Below are positions 582 through 19,350 of a DNA stretch of 34,904 bases, one piece after another. The first letter of the stretch is position 1; each line of letters starts with the position of its first letter. Below the pieces are notes generated by a model. It was not told the DNA's origin and searched no databases. It saw only the letters and a program-made list of their open reading frames with translations. Position numbers and translations under genes: made by a program. The DNA comes from a virus. The stretch spans positions 1 through 34,904 of the IMG/VR virus record IMGVR_UViG_3300049629_000056; one strand, written 5' to 3'.

Positions 582-610
582 TTGGCACGATTCTATTATG
601 CTTATATAGT
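582..610 (+). promoter_or_regulatory. Sigma70-like promoter for the rightward early cluster
   Basis: TTGGCA at 582-587 and TATAGT at 605-610 are separated by exactly 17 bases, and each hexamer matches the sigma70 consensus at five of six positions. Transcription would start near 616-618, about 55 bases before the protease gene at 673. This is the best host-type promoter seen in the window and suggests the cluster is read by host RNA polymerase early in infection. Confidence 0.7.
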
Positions 611-672
611 GAGAGGGTAGATTTTTAGCTCTCTCTTTCTTATCAACATTTATTAAAAGGCGTGAATTCAAA

Positions 673-1245
673 ATGACTAATACCCGTGAACAATGGCTTG
701 CAAACGCAACCACAGAGCTTAGAAGCCTCTTTAAAGCCAATGGGGTAGAGCTACCCTTAGAAGTGCGCTCAAGCTGTGGCTTCCCCTCAAAATCGGCTCT
801 CTCAAATAAGAATCGGAGAATCGGAGAATGTTGGTCTGCTAGAGCATCAGCAGATAGCCATGCGGAGATTTTTATCTCTCCCACGATCAGCGACAGCATG
901 AGGGTTTTGGACATCTTGGCGCATGAGCTTGTTCATGCTTGTCACCCTAACGATGGACATGGGAAGCTGTTTAAACGCACCGCTTTGGCTATTGGCTTAG
1001 AGGGCAAAATGACCGCCACAGTTGCGGGTGAGAAATTCAAGCTCTGGGCGACACCTGTTTTGGAAAGGCTTGGCATTTATCCCCATGCTGACTTGATCCC
1101 CTCAAATGCTCAAAAGAAACAATCAACCAGAATGTTGAAATGTGTTTGCCGTGATTGTGGTTATACAGTGCGAGTGGCGGGTAAGTGGCTCAATGACATG
1201 GGCGCACCACATTGCCCAGATCACGGAGAGATGGCAATCTCTTAA
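673..1245 (+). CDS. SprT-like zinc metalloprotease
   Basis: A 190-residue protein with a SprT/Spartan-type zinc site: HELVH at residues 84-88 (His84, Glu85, His88) and a third ligand candidate His96 in DGHGKLF, followed by a helical segment. A C-terminal zinc-ribbon-like part has Cys157, Cys159 and Cys162, then Cys181 and His184. SprT-family proteins bind DNA, and the eukaryotic relatives cut DNA-protein crosslinks. It is the first gene behind the strong promoter, so it should be made early and might act on host proteins bound to DNA; that role is inference. An AAGG lies 12 bases before the ATG, a rather wide spacing. Family assignment is fairly firm. Confidence 0.85.
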   Translation: MTNTREQWLANATTELRSLFKANGVELPLEVRSSCGFPSKSALSNKNRRIGECWSARASADSHAEIFISPTISDSMRVLDILAHELVHACHPNDGHGKLFKRTALAIGLEGKMTATVAGEKFKLWATPVLERLGIYPHADLIPSNAQKKQSTRMLKCVCRDCGYTVRVAGKWLNDMGAPHCPDHGEMAIS

Positions 1246-1277
1246 CAGCTTAGAGGGAAGCTCGAAAGGGCTTTTCT

Positions 1278-1303
1278 GTGCGCTGTTGCACTATATCGAA
1301 AGG
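1278..1303 (+). promoter_or_regulatory. Leader hairpin plus ribosome site, copy 1
   Basis: GTGC (1278-1281), loop GCTGTT, GCAC (1288-1291), then a ribosome site AAAGG at 1299-1303 in front of the gene at 1313. The same layout with different but still paired stem bases occurs at 1852 and 2269. A separate 5-bp hairpin, AGCTT-N6-AAGCT, lies upstream near 1245-1265. Confidence 0.5.
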
Positions 1304-1312
1304 CGTGATTTT

Positions 1313-1585
1313 ATGATGGCAAACACAAAACCAGTGTTAACTTTTAACTTAGTTGAAAAGGTTGACCCAGAGACTTATCTGGTAACTTTTTTGGTTGTTA
1401 ACTTTGAGGGTGAGATTTTTAATTCTTTCGCTGACCATGAGGGCAAAAAAGCGTTTGACGTTTGGATGTCCTATTTGACTCAGGATGAGAAAACCCAGTG
1501 GGATAACTACATTCTTAAATGCGAAGCTCAAGATGAGGTTTGGAATGAGCAACAATGCGAACGTATGCACTTTTCATACAACTAA
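1313..1585 (+). CDS. Hypothetical 90-aa protein
   Basis: Not recognised. The open frame continues upstream to 1142, but that part overlaps the protease gene; the start at 1313 (or the adjacent ATG at 1316) is set by the AAAGG nine bases before it. The protein is acidic, with alternating hydrophobic residues in its first half (beta-like) and an aromatic-rich C-terminal half. It is one of a string of small rightward genes that probably share the promoter at 582. It may be a host-takeover protein, which is only a guess from position. Confidence 0.7.
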   Translation: MMANTKPVLTFNLVEKVDPETYLVTFLVVNFEGEIFNSFADHEGKKAFDVWMSYLTQDEKTQWDNYILKCEAQDEVWNEQQCERMHFSYN

Positions 1586-1606
1586 ATAAACTTAAAGGCT
1601 TAAATT

Positions 1607-1813
1607 ATGTCAGTAATCACTAACCCAGATCACATCGAACAAATGCGCCTCTTGACCTTGCGTCAAGCTCTCAAGCTCGAAATGATGGGCATGAAAAAGA
1701 GAGGAAAGAGCGCTTATGCAATATTGAATCAAGAGGGCTTCAAAGGCACTAAGCAAGAGATATTCGATCAACTCTCAGAGCTTCGCATTCAGTGGCTTGG
1801 TGAGAGCGTTTAA
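1607..1813 (+). CDS. Hypothetical 68-aa helical protein
   Basis: A short, mostly helical protein with a basic middle (MKKRGKSAY, residues 29-37). Ribosome site AAAGG lies eight bases before ATG. Its stop codon is inside a GTTTAAAC palindrome (GTT-TAA-AC at 1808-1815). Short phage proteins with this LRxALKLE...GxxRRGxSAY pattern seem familiar, but I cannot name a family or function. Confidence 0.7.
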   Translation: MSVITNPDHIEQMRLLTLRQALKLEMMGMKKRGKSAYAILNQEGFKGTKQEIFDQLSELRIQWLGESV

Positions 1814-1826
1814 ACAGTTTCTCTTG

Positions 1827-1876
1827 AGCCACTGTGACAGAGTGGCTTGGGATGCACTGTTGCATTATTTGAAAGG
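1827..1876 (+). promoter_or_regulatory. Tandem leader hairpins plus ribosome site, copy 2
   Basis: A 7-bp stem AGCCACT (1827-1833) / AGTGGCT (1841-1847) with loop GTGACAG is followed by the recurring small hairpin ATGC (1852-1855), loop ACTGTT, GCAT (1862-1865), and then AAAGG at 1872-1876, eight bases before the ATG at 1885. Relative to copy 1 the outer stem pair changed from G-C to A-T on both sides, so pairing is kept. Confidence 0.55.
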
Positions 1877-1884
1877 CTTTAAAA

Positions 1885-2112
1885 ATGACTTACGATTTTG
1901 AAAACATGGTTCAGGCTTCCCGTTGGAATGCTCTACACAATGCGGCAAAGACTATGCGTGAGCATGGCGGTGGCTTTGCGGGTTCTATGGCTGAGGCTTG
2001 GCAAAAGGCAGACAAAACAAACAAAACCAGAATTGAGGAGGCTTTCCCTGATCTGTTTTTCAGATTTATGAGTGAGGCTGATCGTTCTTACTTTGGCGAC
2101 AAAATTCACTGA
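1885..2112 (+). CDS. Hypothetical 75-aa protein
   Basis: Not recognised. The protein is mainly helical, with a Gly-Gly-Gly hinge (residues 28-30) and an acidic, aromatic C-terminal half. The start is supported by AAAGG eight bases upstream and by the shared leader hairpin. A GTTTAAAC palindrome lies five bases after its stop codon. Confidence 0.7.
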   Translation: MTYDFENMVQASRWNALHNAAKTMREHGGGFAGSMAEAWQKADKTNKTRIEEAFPDLFFRFMSEADRSYFGDKIH

Positions 2113-2127
2113 AAGCGTTTAAACATT

Positions 2128-2232
2128 ATGTCTAATTTCAAAGAAACTCTGCTCGATGTCTTAACCTGTATCGGATTGGGGCTTGCCCTCTGTTGGGGTC
2201 TGTTGGCTTATTTCGATATATTGGTAAAGTGA
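2128..2232 (+). CDS. Small membrane protein, 34 aa
   Basis: A short frame from ATG 2128 to TGA 2230-2232. Residues about 10-31 form one hydrophobic segment (Leu, Cys, Ile, Gly, Ala, Trp), flanked by a polar N-terminus and a C-terminal Val-Lys, as expected for a single membrane helix. It begins four bases after a GTTTAAAC palindrome and has no strong ribosome site. It fills the otherwise empty gap between the genes at 1885 and 2303. Phage early regions often encode such peptides; function unknown. Confidence 0.45.
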   Translation: MSNFKETLLDVLTCIGLGLALCWGLLAYFDILVK

Positions 2233-2268
2233 AATTCCAACGGGTAGGCTCACGGGTTGGGTCTATTC

Positions 2269-2294
2269 GGTGCAATGTCGCATCATTTAAAAGG
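2269..2294 (+). promoter_or_regulatory. Leader hairpin plus ribosome site, copy 3
   Basis: GGTGC (2269-2273), loop AATGTC, GCATC (2280-2284) can form five pairs, one of them G-U, followed by AAGG at 2291-2294 and a GTG start eight bases later. Geometry matches the copies at 1278 and 1852 despite changed stem and loop bases. A CCAAC/GTTGG pair lies just upstream. Confidence 0.5.
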
Positions 2295-2302
2295 TGTCAA
2301 TC

Positions 2303-2776
2303 GTGAACAATCCATTAGCGCAAACAATTTGCCAAGCCTTCGACCAAAATCAATACTACTCAAAGTGTTTAAACACTGCCAGAGCCAATGCCCAAGCCAT
2401 GTTATCAGGGCGCACCCATTACGTTGATGATTCAACCTTGCGTTACTTCAACAGTCGCATAACATCGGCTCAACCTTCGACCTTTGGCTTGTTCTTTCTC
2501 ATAACCGAATCGGTGGGAAAAGAAAGTTATGGTGGAAAACGTGGTTTTAGAACTGTCCTCTTTGACATTAACGGACAAGTTGTCTATCGCCCAAGTCTTG
2601 AAGAATTAGAAAACACTTCGACCAAAGCGCAGAAAACTTTTTACGCTTGGTTTGAGTCTTTCAATGCTGAGACTTACTACAAAGACCAAATCAAAGAGAA
2701 GATCATTAAAACCAACAGACAAGCGAGTTATCTGGAAGAGTGTTTAAACGCACTAAATGAGGCGGTTTCAGTATGA
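2303..2776 (+). CDS. Hypothetical 157-aa protein
   Basis: No recognised family. I place the start at GTG 2303, not GTG 2294, because 2294 is the last base of the AAGG ribosome site and the eight-base spacing equals that of the genes at 1607 and 1885. The middle (about 60-100) looks like beta strands and the C-terminal third is helical and charged. The gene carries GTTTAAAC at 2367 and 2742 and overlaps the next gene by ATGA. Confidence 0.7.
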   Translation: MNNPLAQTICQAFDQNQYYSKCLNTARANAQAMLSGRTHYVDDSTLRYFNSRITSAQPSTFGLFFLITESVGKESYGGKRGFRTVLFDINGQVVYRPSLEELENTSTKAQKTFYAWFESFNAETYYKDQIKEKIIKTNRQASYLEECLNALNEAVSV

Positions 2777-3015
2777 ATAAATACACAATCACTCACGGCT
2801 CAATCGCTTCTGTTCAATATGTTACCTTACCCGATGGGCAAAAGGTAATTGTGACCGACGCACAAGATGGCTCAGAAACAGAATTGCCGAAATTACCTAT
2901 GGAGGTGCAAGCCTATGTTAATCGTCAGTTTGGTATTGTTTTTTATTTGCCTTACGAAAGCCGACAAGAATTTATTGATAACTCCATTCCTTTTGAAATA
3001 AAGGTGAAGCCATGA
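2773..3015 (+). CDS. Hypothetical 80-aa protein
   Basis: Not recognised. The first half alternates hydrophobic residues around a PDGQKVIV turn (about 21-28), suggesting a small beta-rich fold. It starts within the stop of the preceding gene (ATGA) and ends in an ATGA overlap with the next, so it is probably translationally coupled on both sides. Confidence 0.65.
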   Translation: MNKYTITHGSIASVQYVTLPDGQKVIVTDAQDGSETELPKLPMEVQAYVNRQFGIVFYLPYESRQEFIDNSIPFEIKVKP

Positions 3016-3218
3016 GAAACCCTCCAAGTGGCTTCAAGCCAAGATCATTTGACGAGCGCATTTGTGATCTCGACCATTTGCAATTCACGCACAAGAAACG
3101 AGCTAAACGAGGGTTTTATTATTGGTCAGAGAAAAGCCCAGACCAAATATTGCACGAGTTTCATTTGTCAGACTTTGCCAAGTGCAGAGCGTTTAAACAA
3201 CTTAGGGTTCAATCATGA
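3012..3218 (+). CDS. Hypothetical 68-aa basic protein
   Basis: Not recognised. It is rich in Arg, Lys and His, with a basic patch THKKRAKRGF (26-35). Both ends are ATGA junctions with neighbours. A GTTTAAAC copy lies at 3191-3198, near its end. Another overlapping frame (3028-3261) was discarded because it breaks this coupling. Confidence 0.6.
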   Translation: MRNPPSGFKPRSFDERICDLDHLQFTHKKRAKRGFYYWSEKSPDQILHEFHLSDFAKCRAFKQLRVQS

Positions 3219-3403
3219 CCAAACAAGATATTCAAGAGCTTGCAGAAAATGCTTTGCATGAGGCTTGCCGACACATTCAAGACGCTTTAGGCGTGAAAAC
3301 TGGAGACACTGCGGGTATGTTTTTCTGCGGTCAACAAGAGGACGAAATACACCAAATTTTTTGTCGATATATTGAAACTGAGTTAATGTTTAAAACAGAA
3401 TGA
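3215..3403 (+). CDS. Hypothetical 62-aa phage protein
   Basis: The segment ALGVKTGDTAGMFF (24-37) followed by an acidic helix looks like a small conserved phage protein I recall from other phages without a function. It starts in an ATGA overlap. A degenerate motif copy, GTTTAAAA, lies near its stop. Confidence 0.65.
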   Translation: MTKQDIQELAENALHEACRHIQDALGVKTGDTAGMFFCGQQEDEIHQIFCRYIETELMFKTE

Positions 3404-3416
3404 ATTGGAAAACAAA

Positions 3417-3587
3417 ATGACACAATTACAAGCACTCACACAATGCCTAGTTTTGGCAATAACTGCACCAGATGACCACAAAGCTAAACGAGCAAGCGAA
3501 TTAGCGGAAGAAATAGCTAGAGGGTTATCGGTTGACCAAGTAGAAGATTGCAAGGCGCAAGCTCTTGAATTGGTGGAGGCATTATGA
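3417..3587 (+). CDS. Hypothetical 56-aa phage protein
   Basis: A small helical protein; the pattern LAITAPDDHKAKRASELAE (residues 14-32) is of a kind often seen in short phage proteins without function. I prefer ATG 3417 because GGAAA lies upstream; an in-frame TTG at 3405 has no ribosome site. The end overlaps the next gene (ATGA at 3584-3587). Confidence 0.65.
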   Translation: MTQLQALTQCLVLAITAPDDHKAKRASELAEEIARGLSVDQVEDCKAQALELVEAL

Positions 3588-3760
3588 CTTTTAGAACTTT
3601 TCTCATTGAGTTTTACCCATACCCTGATTGTGTTCACGCTGAGTACGATGAAACAAGCGCAGAATCTTTAGAGGATGCGGTGGCTGAACTTAAAAAGTAT
3701 CACCCAGAAGCTGAGATTTTGAACACCTATATACACACAGCGTGTTTAAACGGCCTATGA
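3584..3760 (+). CDS. Hypothetical 58-aa acidic protein
   Basis: A short frame beginning in the ATGA overlap at 3584. The N-terminus alternates hydrophobic and aromatic residues (FRTFLIEFYPYP), followed by an acidic helix. GTTTAAAC at 3744-3751 lies inside the last codons. The stop overlaps a further 17-codon frame. Not recognised; tight coupling and full use of the space support it being real. Confidence 0.6.
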   Translation: MTFRTFLIEFYPYPDCVHAEYDETSAESLEDAVAELKKYHPEAEILNTYIHTACLNGL

Positions 3761-3810
3761 TTTATGCTTGCATTGCCCTAGTTCTGCGAATACTTGGCGG
3801 GAAACGCTAA
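3757..3810 (+). CDS. Possible 17-aa leader-like peptide before the terminator
   Basis: ATG at 3757 overlaps the previous stop (ATGA) and the frame runs 17 codons to TAA, ending eight bases before the terminator stem. The peptide is hydrophobic with a basic end (GGKR). It could be a tiny membrane peptide, or its translation could affect the terminator. The frame is very short and may be chance. Confidence 0.3.
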   Translation: MIYACIALVLRILGGKR

Positions 3811-4789: not shown

Positions 4790-5048
4790 ATGTTTGAATC
4801 ATTCTTAAAGCGGCTTCTGGGTTATCAATTCTGCACAAAGTACTTCCCGACCAATTCTCAAAAAAGTCTGTTTGTAGCTTGGTAAAACGCTTTTTAGAGT
4901 TTGTTTTGATCTCTACCAGAAAGGTGTGACCCTTGTAGCCAACTAGCAGATCAACTGGTAATCCAATGATCCAGACGTAAGCACCTGCAGCCCTTAATGC
5001 GGACACAATTTGCTCTTGGTTAGCATCAACTCTAGCGGCATATCTCAT
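4782..5048 (-). CDS. VRR-NUC domain nuclease (PD-(D/E)XK superfamily)
   Basis: An 88-residue single-domain protein with the VRR-NUC core: Asp33 in GLPVDLLVG, Glu46-Ile-Lys48 in FLVEIK, and Gln59 in the helix after TKL. Phage VRR-NUC proteins are small structure-specific or Holliday-junction-type nucleases. Its place between replication and recombination genes suits processing of replication intermediates, which is inference. The start forms an ATGA overlap with the HNH gene upstream. The usual length of stand-alone phage VRR-NUC proteins is similar, so it appears complete. Confidence 0.85.
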   Translation of the reverse strand: MRYAARVDANQEQIVSALRAAGAYVWIIGLPVDLLVGYKGHTFLVEIKTNSKKRFTKLQTDFFENWSGSTLCRIDNPEAALRMIQTLG

Positions 5049-5530
5049 AGAAGTGTCCCATCTCTTGTGTATTCGCCATGATGTAGTTGAAGGTGGCTTT
5101 TATATGCCTGTTTTGCATCTTCTAATGATTCAAATCTTCCGATATGTATCTTTTTATTTTTAGCCCTAAGTTGAGCAAACCATTTTTTATGCGCCTTATC
5201 CCAAGTTACACCTTTTACACCGCTACTACCTAATTTGGTTTTCATATTCCATGCGTTTTGGAAAGATGTAACTTCTCTTAAATTTTCAATTCGGTTGTCA
5301 TCTCTGATTCCGTTTATATGGTCAAGTATTTTTGGTAAATACCCATGATGGTATAAAAATATAGCTCTATGGCTATAAATGTATTTGTAGTTTATTTGAA
5401 TATGCTCATAACCATTTTTACACTTTGAACCAGCTTTTTTACCTTTACATTTTTTTGTAAATCTATCTACTTTCCAATATAAATTTCCATCCTTGTATTC
5501 AAACAATTCATGCAATTCTTCTTTGGTCAT
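5045..5530 (-). CDS. HNH homing-type endonuclease with AP2 domain, copy 1
   Basis: A 161-residue protein with an HNH_3-type domain (Asp70-His71, Asn79, Asn83 in RIENLR, Asn92) and a C-terminal AP2/ERF-type DNA-binding domain (about 104-150; GVKGVTWDKAHKKW). These are free-standing mobile endonucleases that invade phage genomes. Base use supports recent entry: 5101-5160 has about 27% G+C against about 52% at 4201-4260. It sits neatly between two genes through ATGA overlaps at both ends. A relative lies at 8640-9143, with a shared layout but only moderate similarity. Confidence 0.9.
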   Translation of the reverse strand: MTKEELHELFEYKDGNLYWKVDRFTKKCKGKKAGSKCKNGYEHIQINYKYIYSHRAIFLYHHGYLPKILDHINGIRDDNRIENLREVTSFQNAWNMKTKLGSSGVKGVTWDKAHKKWFAQLRAKNKKIHIGRFESLEDAKQAYKSHLQLHHGEYTRDGTLL

Positions 5531-11214: not shown

Positions 11215-11358
11215 CTACTTAGCCAATAGGTAAAGACCTATATTTGAACTAGCGTAACCTGCATAGACAATCGCCATGTGCGGGTTACCTTTCAAAAACT
11301 GCTCTACCGCTATGTAAGCGTAGATCAAGCCTGTCAAAGCAATCAACCAAGCACTCAA
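11215..11358 (-). CDS. Small two-helix membrane protein with TTG start, 47 aa
   Basis: The frame starts with TTG at 11358, overlapping the stop of the phosphoesterase gene (TTGA), with AGGTG seven bases upstream, and ends at TAG 11215-11217. Two hydrophobic segments (about 3-23 and 28-46) are joined by a short polar turn (FLKGNPHMA). Small phage membrane proteins of this shape, with the turn followed by IVYAGYA, are familiar to me, without function. It could be holin-like, but it is far from the endolysin gene. No ATG start fits except an internal one at residue 28. Confidence 0.65.
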   Translation of the reverse strand: MSAWLIALTGLIYAYIAVEQFLKGNPHMAIVYAGYASSNIGLYLLAK

Positions 11359-12341
11359 AATGCACCTACATCAATCACTTCGCCTCTAAACTCAATCTGA
11401 TTCTCATCAAATTTATGGACGAGTTCAGGCCATAAAAGCTGACCATTGAAGAAGTTTAACACCGCAAAGCCCGATCTGTGATTAGCAGGGTTTATCTCAG
11501 CATAAGTAAATTGTGGGCCATCTGTCTCAGCCAAAGTGCCTGTATCTACCCCAAAACGATTGCCGTTATAGTCAGCAAATGGCGTGACCTTTAAGGAATG
11601 TAGATGACCCGTCACAATACTAACACCCGCATTGATAGTGTTGTTGTGAGTGGCATGAACACCACCCTTATATCGGTGCTTGATAATACATTGTTCGGTA
11701 GGCCATACCGCCCAACAAAACTCCCAATCAAGAAAGTGGTCTGTCAGCTTAAAACCTAATACTTCTTTGTATTGTGGTGCGTGTTGCGCTAAACGATTGC
11801 CGAATCTAACATCGTGATTACCCCATGTCCACAGTAGCTTTACATTATGTCGGACAGACTTTGCAATCTCCTCTATTTCGTTAAGCGCACCCTGACAGGC
11901 TTTTAACTCTTGAATAACAGTAGTCGCTGGTTGTTCAGTTACGTCATGGCGAGAGATAGAAGCCCCATCAAACGCATCTCCGTTACAGATGATGGCTTTG
12001 GGTTTGAACTCTTGGATAGCCCATAGAAGCCCTTTAAATGCTGTTGTTCGTTGACCAGGTATGAAGTGAGCATCAGAGAAGACAATGACAGTCCCATCTA
12101 GGATGCCAAGTTCTATTTGCTTTAAAGGAGAGAAAGACTTGGGTCTGTTTTTGTTATACAAATCACCTCGATGGTCTTTCGCATTGAGGGTCATGTTGTA
12201 TTCTTTTTCAATCCACCTTCTGCGTAAATGGACTGCCCTGTTATTTATACCAAGGTGTTCTGCCATTCTTTGTGCAGATTGAAGTTGACCCCATAACTGG
12301 ATGAACTCCATGTCGGTACAGGTTTCATTATGTGCGCCCAT
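11355..12341 (-). CDS. Calcineurin-like metallophosphoesterase with N-terminal HTH-like domain
   Basis: A 328-residue protein with the five metallophosphoesterase motifs: Asp90-Ala-His92, Gly121-Asp122, Gly174-Asn-His-Asp177, His229/His232 and Gly245-His-Leu-His248. These bind two metals and cleave phosphoester bonds. Residues 11-45 resemble a small helix-turn-helix (AQRMAEHLGINNRAVHLRRR). Phage relatives are often annotated as exonuclease/phosphoesterase without a known substrate. It overlaps the metalloprotease-like gene by 14 bases and lies at the far end of the late region. Confidence 0.85.
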   Translation of the reverse strand: MGAHNETCTDMEFIQLWGQLQSAQRMAEHLGINNRAVHLRRRWIEKEYNMTLNAKDHRGDLYNKNRPKSFSPLKQIELGILDGTVIVFSDAHFIPGQRTTAFKGLLWAIQEFKPKAIICNGDAFDGASISRHDVTEQPATTVIQELKACQGALNEIEEIAKSVRHNVKLLWTWGNHDVRFGNRLAQHAPQYKEVLGFKLTDHFLDWEFCWAVWPTEQCIIKHRYKGGVHATHNNTINAGVSIVTGHLHSLKVTPFADYNGNRFGVDTGTLAETDGPQFTYAEINPANHRSGFAVLNFFNGQLLWPELVHKFDENQIEFRGEVIDVGAF

Positions 12342-12702
12342 TGGAATCCTTAGACAGTAACTTTTCTAAAAGGTTAATGACTCTATGCTCTTGCATTTCC
12401 ACTTCATCTTGAGATGATTTAGGGTCTTGCGCCACAGTCATTAAATCGTGCAGAAACACATGAAGCAACTCATGTAAAGCAGTCTGATCCAGAGACTCTG
12501 GTGTGATCTTCTCAGCACCAAAATCACCTAGTCTATAAGTAGCCAATCGAGCAGAAGTATTAAACTCAACAGAAGCCATAGCAGCCTTTGCTGGTTTACT
12601 TCCTTTTTCAATTCTCCAATCACCCAAACTAAGCACTTGTTGCCACTTTCTGACACTTTGTGCGAAAAGTTTTGCATCTTCTGGTGTAGGAATGTTAGGC
12701 AT
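12328..12702 (-). CDS. HExxH metalloprotease-like protein
   Basis: A 124-residue protein with HELLH at 77-81 and a further His at 85 within LHVFLHD. This is a zincin-type motif, here in a helix at about residues 73-90; preceding segments look like beta strands (MASVEFNTSARLATYRL). It does not look like the SprT-like protein at 673. AAGGTG precedes the ATG well. It lies between lysis genes and the phosphoesterase. Proteolytic activity is likely but the target is unknown. Confidence 0.65.
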   Translation of the reverse strand: MPNIPTPEDAKLFAQSVRKWQQVLSLGDWRIEKGSKPAKAAMASVEFNTSARLATYRLGDFGAEKITPESLDQTALHELLHVFLHDLMTVAQDPKSSQDEVEMQEHRVINLLEKLLSKDSNGRT

Positions 12703-12737
12703 TTCAACACCTTATAGCAGAATTGTTACAGTTTAGT

Positions 12738-13337
12738 TTAAGAAGCCAACACAAGTAAAGCGTGATCTATGTGCTTTATGCGGTCTTCCAAGCCTATAAA
12801 ACCGCCATTTATCTTCTTTGTTAGGGTTCTGTAGTCCTTGGAATCGGCATATTGGTTCAGCTTTTGGACATCCCAGAACCACCCCGCAGTAAGAGCCGCA
12901 TACATTGGAGTCGCTACCAACTCAGGTTGCATCACAAAATCCACCCCTAGAGCCTGACCTGCATGGAAATAGTTTGCATGGCCTGTCAATTGGATACATC
13001 CTCGGCCTCGGAAACGATAACCATCCCCAGAAGCCTCATCCCTGTTGCCCATCCGATTAGAGTAAACAGTATTGGCAATCAACTTGGGATTACGAGCGCA
13101 AGCCTGTGCCTTGGCAGCATCAAACCTTTTAGGCCATAACTTCTGCAAAGCCTCTGCACGATAGTTCAAATTCTCTTCAAGGATTCTGAAGTTCCCACAT
13201 TCATGCCCACATTGACCAATGAAAGCCGCCTTTCTAAGGGGATTCATAATGTCAAAACGCTCAAAAGTGGCATTCAGGGCATCTACCCATTCCTCACCAA
13301 TATGAAGTTGTCGGAGTTGTTCTTTATTTACTGACAT
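12738..13337 (-). CDS. Endolysin, glycoside hydrolase family 19
   Basis: A 199-residue chitinase-like lysozyme. The family pattern GHECGNF (catalytic Glu46), the following EENLNY, and the RFRGRGCIQLTGHANY segment (about 108-123) are clear. GH19 endolysins cut the glycan strand of peptidoglycan at the end of infection. There is no signal peptide or membrane anchor, so a holin is needed for export. It overlaps the Rz-like gene by 14 bases, giving a holin, spanin, endolysin order. Length is normal for phage GH19 enzymes. Confidence 0.92.
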   Translation of the reverse strand: MSVNKEQLRQLHIGEEWVDALNATFERFDIMNPLRKAAFIGQCGHECGNFRILEENLNYRAEALQKLWPKRFDAAKAQACARNPKLIANTVYSNRMGNRDEASGDGYRFRGRGCIQLTGHANYFHAGQALGVDFVMQPELVATPMYAALTAGWFWDVQKLNQYADSKDYRTLTKKINGGFIGLEDRIKHIDHALLVLAS

Positions 13338-18097: not shown

Positions 18098-19350
18098 TAT
18101 TTCTTCTCCACAGGACGATACTTGTTTATCAAGGCATCATCACTTGATGTTGATGAGGGTGCGCTTTCCCCTTTTTTTACAAGTTTAAACTGAGCAAGTT
18201 GACTGTCAATGTTTCTTAGAGCAACCTTATAGTTTGGAGATTCTGTATAACCAAACTCTTCTGCTGCCGACTCTAGCTTCCTCTTGCGCTCAATCAATGC
18301 ACCACGATAAAGAGCAATAGCAAACTTCTCTGCTTGATCTTTCTTAACTTCAGTTGTTCTACCAGTAAAGAACTTTACAGCATCTTGTGCTAAACGATCA
18401 TCAAGTCCACCAGTACGGGCAAACCTGTCGACATCAGCATTTGACATATTCTTGCCTTGACCTGTCAACAATGCTATTGAAGTTGGCAAAGAAGCAGCCG
18501 CAAAATCATTGCCTCTTGAGTTTCTAATAATTTCAATAGCACTTGGTGCATCAGAAAGAATTGTAGAAGTGCGCTGCATTATTGGGTCACTACTCAAAAC
18601 CTTTTGGGTAAAGTCCATCCAATCTTTTGTAGGTACTGGCTGACCAGGCAAAATAGTTTTAGGAGCACCTTTTTCAGCTTTTGTACCTTCTTCATCTTCT
18701 AGACGCTTATTAACAATTGCTTTTTCTTTTGGTGTAAGGTCTTTAAATGATCTGTTGTCAAACATTTCATTAGAAACTGCTTCTCTTTTTTCTCCAGAAC
18801 GTAGGTTCTCAGGTTTTTCTGGTTTTTCGTATAAGACTAAATCCGAAGGTTTACCCGTTATTTCATACTCTGCAAGACTTGCAGGGGTATATTTACCTGA
18901 TTCCACTAATCTTTGGAATGGATCAGCTTGAGCACGCTCACGTTTTGACGCAGCCAAAGATGCTTGTCCTGCCGCCAAACGCTGTTGTTGTTCAGCAATT
19001 TGAACTTGAGCCTTACGAGCAAAATCAGCCAATGCAAAAGCACCCTGTTGGTCGCCCATTTGAGCAAGAGTTTTAGCTCCATTTAACAAAGAAGTAGGAT
19101 CAGATTGATCTAGTTGACCTAAAACCTGTTGTCTAGCACTAATTAACTTCAACTGAGGGTCTTCTATGCCTAAAGCACCGCCAATAGCACCAGTAAGACC
19201 TCTAGCACCCGCATAGGTCATTGCCGCACCCGCTTCACCAGGAGTCAGTTTGGCAAGGTCAATACCCTCACGCAAAGCACTTCTACGTTGTTGCTCACCA
19301 TACATTTCAGGGGTCAGCCCGAACAGACCCGCTACGATATTTTCTGCCAT
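18097..19350 (-). CDS. Putative internal virion protein, 417 aa
   Basis: N-terminal region with Ala/Gly-rich helices (AAMTYAGARGLTGAIGGALG, about 42-61), then a Gln/Ala-rich coiled coil around 110-150 (IAEQQQRLAAGQASLAASKR) and a charged C-terminal half. AAGGA supports the ATG at 19350. It overlaps the 916-aa gene by one base. By position it is the second of three likely ejection-type proteins. Confidence 0.6.
   Translation of the reverse strand: MAENIVAGLFGLTPEMYGEQQRRSALREGIDLAKLTPGEAGAAMTYAGARGLTGAIGGALGIEDPQLKLISARQQVLGQLDQSDPTSLLNGAKTLAQMGDQQGAFALADFARKAQVQIAEQQQRLAAGQASLAASKRERAQADPFQRLVESGKYTPASLAEYEITGKPSDLVLYEKPEKPENLRSGEKREAVSNEMFDNRSFKDLTPKEKAIVNKRLEDEEGTKAEKGAPKTILPGQPVPTKDWMDFTQKVLSSDPIMQRTSTILSDAPSAIEIIRNSRGNDFAAASLPTSIALLTGQGKNMSNADVDRFARTGGLDDRLAQDAVKFFTGRTTEVKKDQAEKFAIALYRGALIERKRKLESAAEEFGYTESPNYKVALRNIDSQLAQFKLVKKGESAPSSTSSDDALINKYRPVEKK

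Follow-up and report, generated by a model that had tools for sequence, protein, structure and literature searches.

A tailed phage known from a virus record of 34,904 nucleotides (IMG/VR record IMGVR_UViG_3300049629_000056, positions 1 to 34,904; this whole stretch was analysed and is called the window below) carries seven copies of the 8-bp palindrome GTTTAAAC in its rightward early genes. We report here that this word is associated, in both directions, with the gene for a SprT-like zinc metalloprotease, and that it tracks the SprT lineage rather than the phage backbone. GTTTAAAC is almost certainly a selected DNA site that is functionally tied to this SprT lineage, and from its distribution we lean towards the view that the SprT-like protein is the reader of the word and has a regulatory role. 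The link to the SprT-like gene, absent from a preliminary description of the window made from its letters alone, is the main point of this study. Dispersed phage sites and SprT proteases were already known, and what appears to be new is the link of the SprT family to one word. Phage SprT-like genes are common and have been annotated only as 'protease' or 'transcription elongation protein', so that their strict link with one 8-bp palindrome, which runs in both directions and agrees with the SprT tree, provides a first concrete and cheaply testable function for the family. It suggests a metalloprotease regulator that is addressed to DNA, and GTTTAAAC would be a simple marker of a regulatory system common to phages of diverse hosts, including E. 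coli phages.

Clustering of GTTTAAAC in the early genes of the window

The word starts at positions 969, 1808, 2117, 2367, 2742, 3191 and 3744, exactly as the preliminary description had placed the seven copies, and the single copy that it had seen elsewhere starts at 18183. The excess over chance that it had pointed out was confirmed by dinucleotide shuffling of the whole window (n = 100), which gave a mean of 0.96 copies and a maximum of 4, against the 8 observed. Among the 8-mers of positions 600 to 3800, GTTTAAAC was the most frequent. Five of the seven cluster copies are wholly intragenic, and codon-aware shuffling, named earlier as a way to refute the pattern, did not reproduce them: a mean of 1.14 intragenic copies was obtained by synonymous shuffling within genes (P 0.0016), and 0.51 by synonymous draws from pooled codon usage (P < 2e-4). 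The cluster copies occupy all three reading frames as well as intergenic space, which indicates a constraint on the DNA and not a protein motif. The features concerned, all on the + strand, are as follows.

582 to 610, +: likely early promoter, TTGGCA-N17-TATAGT, upstream of the word-bearing operon, inferred by reading the sequence
673 to 1245, +: gene for the SprT-like zinc metalloprotease (190 amino acids), with an HELVH motif and a C-terminal zinc ribbon, KCVCRDCGY...HCPDHG
729 to 736, +: degraded word site CTTTAAAG in SprT codons 19-22; GTTTAAAC itself stands here in most relatives
969 to 976, +: word 1, within the SprT-like gene (codons ...L-F-K-R...); the same intragenic site bears GTTTAAAC in many SprT relatives
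1607 to 3760, +: short rightward early genes with words 2 to 7, cassettes that are shuffled among relatives
1808 to 1815, +: word 2, from which the stop codon (AGC GTT TAA) of the open reading frame (ORF) 1607-1813 comes
2117 to 2124, +: word 3, intergenic, with ORF 1885-2112 on one side and an ATG at 2128 on the other
2367 to 2374, +: word 4, at codon 25 of ORF 2294-2776, near the start of the gene
2742 to 2749, +: word 5, close to the 3' end of ORF 2294-2776
3191 to 3198, +: word 6, close to the 3' end of ORF 3012-3218
3744 to 3751, +: word 7, close to the 3' end of ORF 3584-3760, the final gene of the cluster

The copies had been said to tend to sit at gene ends and even to supply a stop codon. 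The latter is correct for the copy at 1808 (GTT TAA); placement at gene ends applies to that copy and to those at 3744, 3191 and 2742, which lie no more than about 35 bases from a stop, but not to those at 969 and 2367, and the copy at 2117 is intergenic.

Arrays accompany SprT in close relatives

SprT relatives of the window were found at 80 loci carrying the gene 673-1245 (protein identity 73-99%). Word arrays were present at all 80, with 529 copies against 15.7 expected from dinucleotides and 34.9 from a third-order Markov background; relatives with this gene thus do not lack the word, the other outcome that had been proposed as a refutation. A second SprT group had arrays at 78 of 78 loci (861 copies, 44.8 expected), and GTTTAAAC ranked first of the 256 palindromic 8-mers in the SprT groups.

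The converse was seen in 77 terminase relatives without SprT, which together contained 18 copies against 16.0 expected over 724 kb, the level of chance. These phages have the same backbone (terminase mostly 88-99% identical) and the same ribbon-helix-helix-like (RHH-like) ORF, with 0-2 words in the 4.5-kb early region, and no alternative repeated palindrome was found in them. When the RHH-like ORF was taken as anchor, SprT-positive contigs had 5-10 words per 4.5 kb and SprT-negative contigs 0-2, except for L145/L146, in which the ORF match is weak (30%) and lies away from SprT. Relatives of ORF 2294-2776 have the word at +73 in 7/7 SprT-positive and 0/4 SprT-negative cases, a comparison that is supportive rather than independent because the sequences are related. 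Across ten other phage records, SprT was the sole gene found in all array genomes and missing from all those that were SprT-negative or array-free.

The RHH-like ORF was itself considered as the reader. This ORF of 75 amino acids (pattern GRPSKPNTRYFQRTLTDPERIILLSAGKGNICRGFETVLDL...) occupies 250-477 on the - strand of the window and is transcribed divergently to the early operon; many relatives share it, at 42-99% identity and likewise upstream of the terminase. It matched no Pfam or PHROG family. MetJ and Arc, which are ribbon-helix-helix proteins, read short palindromic operators as dimers, some of these operators being in arrays. Unlike those operators, GTTTAAAC does not co-occur with ORF 250-477, which was rejected since it occurs in array-free close relatives and is missing from many array phages.

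The word and SprT in unrelated phages

Named phages with SprT at 34-51% identity were next examined. Pseudanabaena phage Pan1 has 16 words and Dinoroseobacter phage R5C has 17, in genomes of 61-63% G+C where about 0.35 would be expected (a hand estimate from base composition) and where a reversed control pattern gave 0. Eight Jilinvirus-type phages (of Escherichia, Enterobacter, Klebsiella, Pseudomonas, Achromobacter, Burkholderia and Serratia) carry 4-7 words each, and genome-wide copies in other phages number 4-25. In Pan1, R5C and the Jilinvirus-type phages the words are scattered over replication and structural genes. Five actinophages and two Bordetella/Pseudomonas phages with SprT had no word, and their zinc ribbons are mostly altered or missing.

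The presence of the word was then compared with the type of ribbon over 236 SprT loci. The CGY/CP type had 1359 words against 31.6 expected in 181 loci, 170 of which were enriched singly, whereas the CGC types had 0 against 2.5 expected in 23 loci. The word-free sister clades have other ribbon types (CGCVVRMTRKWL...CACGG; EGSGY) and comprise L246, L249, L255 and L279-L294, together with the actinophage loci L209, L210, L215 and L217. No substitute palindrome was found in the CGC-ribbon, actinophage and other zero-word clades with ungapped 8-mers or simple gapped palindromes, a search that would not exclude a weaker or non-palindromic site; these clades may read another word or none.

On an SprT tree of 74 rows, in which bootstrap support is not fully settled and many forks are open, the state of the word changes 4 times, compared with 20.5 times when labels are shuffled, and none of 500 shuffles gave a number as low.

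A reverse scan that was blind to SprT used two words 298-328 bp apart as its query. At least 80 loci were analysed, a few of them already known from the SprT searches. Among the matches listed, 52 loci had at least 5 words; SprT was in the fetched stretch of 28 of these and elsewhere on the record in 7 more, one of these seven genes having an internal stop codon, with an eighth recognised by Pfam only. Among the same matches, SprT was found in 0 of 17 two-word loci (16 of them searched across the whole record).

In 31 divergent word-bearing genomes, SprT was the sole gene family present in all, the next family occurring in 16. This set consists partly of fragments picked for SprT, and since families were matched at the BLAST level a small, fast-evolving reader could escape notice. 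The comparison suggests that the reader is SprT or something inseparable from SprT. No reported link between an SprT-like family and GTTTAAAC was found in the open-licence literature, and the published R5C papers mention neither.

Features of the SprT-like protein

The protein matches the Pfam family SprT-like (PF10263) with 23.9 bits (E 3.9e-05), the gathering cut-off being 25.6, and phrog_6361 with E 4e-50; relatives are annotated in GenBank as SprT-like protease. The HExxH motif is present as HELVH, with H84, E85 and H88 invariant in alignments A1 and A5. The four cysteines of the ribbon (C157, C159, C162 and C181) are invariant in alignment A1, and variants are found in sister clades. The predicted model (predicted local distance difference test score, pLDDT, 88.7) had SPRTN as its best structural match (6mdx, Z 8.7 over 97 residues with 22% identity; 6mdw, Z 8.6), followed by abylysin/selecase, and archaeal minigluzincins ranked behind SPRTN; the comparison covers mainly residues 1-135 and hardly includes the zinc ribbon. 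A sequence search of the PDB with the SprT alignment gave no match at E 0.1, so that the likeness to SPRTN comes from the fold comparison only. When genome contigs were searched with the SprT alignment for a host or prophage, 86 stretches fitted the pattern and none was confirmed.

The SprT gene as a target of the word

The word lies in the SprT gene or within 120 bp upstream of it in 179 of 191 enriched loci, where local word density predicts 68. Promoter elements at SprT were called by eye. All eight Jilinvirus-type SprT promoter regions have the same order, namely a terminator, a -10-like hexamer (TATAAT, TAAAAT, TATTAT, TACAAT and similar), 6-8 bp, GTTTAAAC, a ribosome site and the ATG, which places the word at the predicted SprT transcription start. 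In L247 it lies in the spacer between TTGACA and a -10-like hexamer, and in L329-L342 the arrangement AAGGAG-GTTTAAAC-ATG has the word occupying the gap between Shine-Dalgarno sequence and start codon. Within the gene, SprT codons 19-21 are near-invariant (CTG 41/66, TTT 65/66, AAA 61/62), whereas its other Leu, Phe and Lys codons vary. With the word on or within the SprT gene in many phages, SprT is probably self-regulated.

Shape of the site

The GTTTAAAC core is embedded in a partial, weak dyad, (A/G)NNN(C/T)GTTTAAAC(A/G)NNN(C/T). From 119 non-redundant sites of window relatives the consensus is (C/G)A-N-A-G-(C/T)-GTTTAAAC-(A/G)-N-(C/T)-N-T, in which position -5 (A/G) mirrors +12 (T/C) and -1 (C/T) mirrors +8 (A/G). 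The flanks described earlier (AGCG or GTG before, CA after) are roughly right for the window, and are better summarised as R-A-G-Y on the 5' side and a purine on the 3' side; the copy at 18183 is without them. Similar dyad flanks are also seen elsewhere: the R5C/Pan1 group prefers C(-1)/G(+8) and the Jilinvirus-type group R(-5)/Y(+12), and in the third large group (A4-type) chiefly the core is conserved, plus a Y/R step. Single-base variants of GTTTAAAC were compared with expectation; the word itself was enriched 46-fold, and only GTTTACAC (5.4-fold), its complement GTGTAAAC (2.0) and GTTTAAAT (2.7-fold) were noticeably raised among the variants. The flank preference spans about 18 bp and the core self-pairs without a loop; such a loop-free dyad indicates a symmetric reader acting on double-stranded DNA. 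No helical phasing of the word spacings was detected (R 0.06).

Proposed role of SprT and its alternatives

A protein-binding site was one of the options raised in the preliminary description, and it is the one supported by the dyad motif, the synonymous constraint, the operator-like promoter positions and the link to one protein family. GTTTAAAC would then be a double-stranded recognition site, and the constant gene of the phage system is the SprT-like zinc metalloprotease. An SprT dimer may contact the palindrome through the C-terminal zinc ribbon, which corresponds to the DNA-binding part in human SPRTN, and SprT is probably autoregulated through sites at the transcription start, in the promoter spacer, in the gap between Shine-Dalgarno sequence and ATG, or in the coding region. 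Where sites extend over the early operon, as in the window, or over the whole genome, as in other phages, the bound protein could act as a stoperator-like roadblock that turns early genes off; alternatively, the dispersed sites could load a DNA-dependent protease onto phage DNA. The full proposal, that one family of phage SprT-like metalloproteases reads GTTTAAAC via the zinc ribbon, regulates its own gene and acts at dispersed stoperators or protease-loading points, and that this system of a protease with its own DNA address has spread over unrelated phages of diverse hosts, is in our judgement evenly balanced between being right and wrong.

A precedent for many dispersed copies of one short site, of which the window has seven in its early operon, is given by the stoperators of L5 and cluster A mycobacteriophages, which are often at gene junctions, are tied to one phage protein and are thought to stop transcription (PMC9283540). 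Unlike the GTTTAAAC palindrome with its dyad flanks, L5 stoperators are asymmetric, and the temperate-phage repressor that binds them is a monomeric helix-turn-helix protein. L5 stoperators also point one way with respect to transcription; for window-type sites, with their symmetric core, the forward direction gave the better fit in 75% of held-out cases. Stoperators are accompanied by an immunity repressor, GTTTAAAC by a metalloprotease gene. Neither an integrase nor an immunity repressor family turned up in the scan of the window genes, which covered part of the ORFs of a record that may be incomplete. On the protein side, the phage SprT resembles SPRTN/Wss1-type proteases and E. coli SprT in combining an HExxH protease domain with a C-terminal zinc-binding domain; SPRTN, unlike the proposed phage SprT, recognises DNA structure and not sequence, and no target word for SPRTN was reported in the literature searched. 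ArdC likewise has an SprT-like metalloprotease domain and is a DNA-binding protein of a mobile genome, and some phage homologues are annotated 'antirestriction'. Sequence-specific double-strand reading would be novel for the SprT/SPRTN fold, and sequence-specific binding by the protease, if shown, could make the reading a categorically new one.

Several points weigh against SprT as the reader. The SPRTN zinc-binding domain binds single-stranded DNA and has no known sequence specificity (PMC12279946), and ArdC, unlike the proposed phage SprT, uses a separate N-terminal domain for its non-specific binding of single-stranded DNA (PMC7213743). The modelled fold was compared mainly over residues 1-135, so the ribbon proposed to contact DNA hardly enters the comparison, and specific binding of the word by SprT is a prediction from association. 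Sister SprT clades without the word (CGC ribbons, actinophages) show that the word is not general to SprT. Among the reverse-scan matches listed, 17 of the 52 word-rich records had no SprT detectable by alignment (16 with the Pfam match); the majority are short fragments, but two measure 23-30 kb. A few words are retained without SprT in contigs L185/L186, and in the window group the predicted early promoter has no word. Finally, the word could be read by a host protein, provided that this protein were conserved all the way from cyanobacteria to Enterobacteria.

This last point belongs to the alternative that survives best, which we regard as possible though clearly less probable than reading by SprT: GTTTAAAC would be bound by another trans-acting factor, be it a regulator of the host or a small phage protein that has escaped recognition. 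SprT would then either belong to the regulon of this factor or counteract the factor by cleaving it, as IrrE/ImmA-type proteases do with DdrO/ImmR-type repressors. SprT-type proteins do target DNA-bound proteins, the word stands at SprT promoters as it would at the target gene of another regulator, and the word-rich contigs lacking a detectable SprT would be accounted for. Such a factor finds no second gene common to the 31 word-bearing genomes, however, and a host reader would require one 8-bp site to be conserved across cyanobacteria, Roseobacter and Enterobacteria. Moreover, the phages hold the words under synonymous constraint, unlike the sites of a hostile factor.

Slightly less probable again is that the words are not transcriptional operators and serve as sequence-specific loading sites of an SprT-like protease, which would strip phage DNA of host or defence proteins in an anti-restriction-like manner. 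Here SprT would still be the reader, so this is a variant of the proposal above and its probability overlaps with it. SPRTN-type proteases require DNA for activity. Along the genomes of Pan1 (P 0.003) and R5C (P 0.03) the sites are spaced more evenly than at random, and only 3% of spacings in early arrays are below 100 bp, against 19% under uniform placement; both observations fit a roadblock or loading alike. The limitation of the window-group words to one operon and the overlap of SprT sites with promoters, which suggests transcriptional control, favour the roadblock over loading, and the anti-restriction effect of ArdC was independent of its protease centre (PMC7213743).

Cassette shuffling and the border question

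It had also been suggested that the word marks module borders, and early cassettes might indeed be exchanged at GTTTAAAC via short homology or a recombinase. Inter-word stretches do recur as units whose order is shuffled among relatives, L085 is without exactly the 309 bp that separate words 1808 and 2117, and 19% of alignment breakpoints have a word no more than 10 bp away, compared with 7% of random positions (about 2.7-fold). Breakpoints fall equally at word-free gene junctions (about 1248, 3000-3011 and 3581), however, and hardly any is found at the words within gene 2294-2776. The scatter of words over replication and structural genes in Pan1, R5C and the Jilinvirus-type phages also argues against borders, which in addition would leave the promoter positions unexplained. 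The window genes that were scanned yielded no recombinase family, nor do the 31 word-bearing genomes share one, SprT alone being present in 31/31; in this respect, and in that exchange breakpoints are not tied to the word, the system differs from integron-like cassettes. Recombination at cassette borders was therefore rejected as the main function, given that breakpoints track gene junctions with or without the word; a border role would be at most a by-product, and as an explanation of GTTTAAAC it is improbable.

Short repeats between shuffled early genes have reportedly been described by Arbiol et al. (2010) as promoter-early-stem-loop cassettes of T4-type phages. Those elements consist of a promoter and a stem-loop, whereas the palindrome GTTTAAAC comes with neither a loop nor a conserved -35 box and is often intragenic.

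That the word works at the RNA level, by signalling translation or RNA processing next to start and stop codons, is the least probable explanation and very doubtful: several words abut Shine-Dalgarno sequences or start codons (as in L329-L342) or overlap stops, and 75% of held-out window-type sites are better fitted in the forward orientation, but the core is itself symmetric, the flanks show dyad symmetry and no hairpin loop, and the L247 word in the -35/-10 spacer is outside that predicted transcript, so that the RNA-processing boundary proposed earlier is not upheld.

Other features of the window and its relatives

Among the genes of the window are those for terminase, portal, major head protein, a primosomal/O-like protein, a Sak-like annealing protein and an endolysin, as in a tailed phage. 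At 5045-5530 on the - strand, a 161-amino-acid HNH endonuclease with an AP2 domain is probably a free-standing homing endonuclease. Repeats AGGGTTTCTACC / TAGGGTTT occur in non-coding DNA at 60-130 and 520-560, left of the early operon, and words similar to TAGGGTTT are also present in relatives without an array. A leader, TGC(A/G)(C/T)TGTTGCA(C/T)TATTTGAAAGGC, recurs upstream of several early genes (about 1280-1310, 1845-1875 and 2268-2295) and is often preceded by a small hairpin. In relatives, intergenic GTTTAAAC is often directly followed by a GC-rich hairpin with a TTCG loop.

In the terminase relative L029, GGACCAAC and CCAACAGG occur 14 times each at 11324-12971, possibly as a collagen-like repeat in a structural gene. 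Loci L057 and L059 lie on one contig (IMGVR_UViG_3300043446_000617, 68,218 bp) with two terminase matches 34 kb apart; a 34-kb genome has probably been assembled here in two copies, as a concatemer. In L012, on a contig shared with L103, SprT, the RHH-like ORF and the terminase adjoin each other, which indicates that window ends 1 and 34904 are probably joined in the phage genome, by circular permutation or as a circular map.

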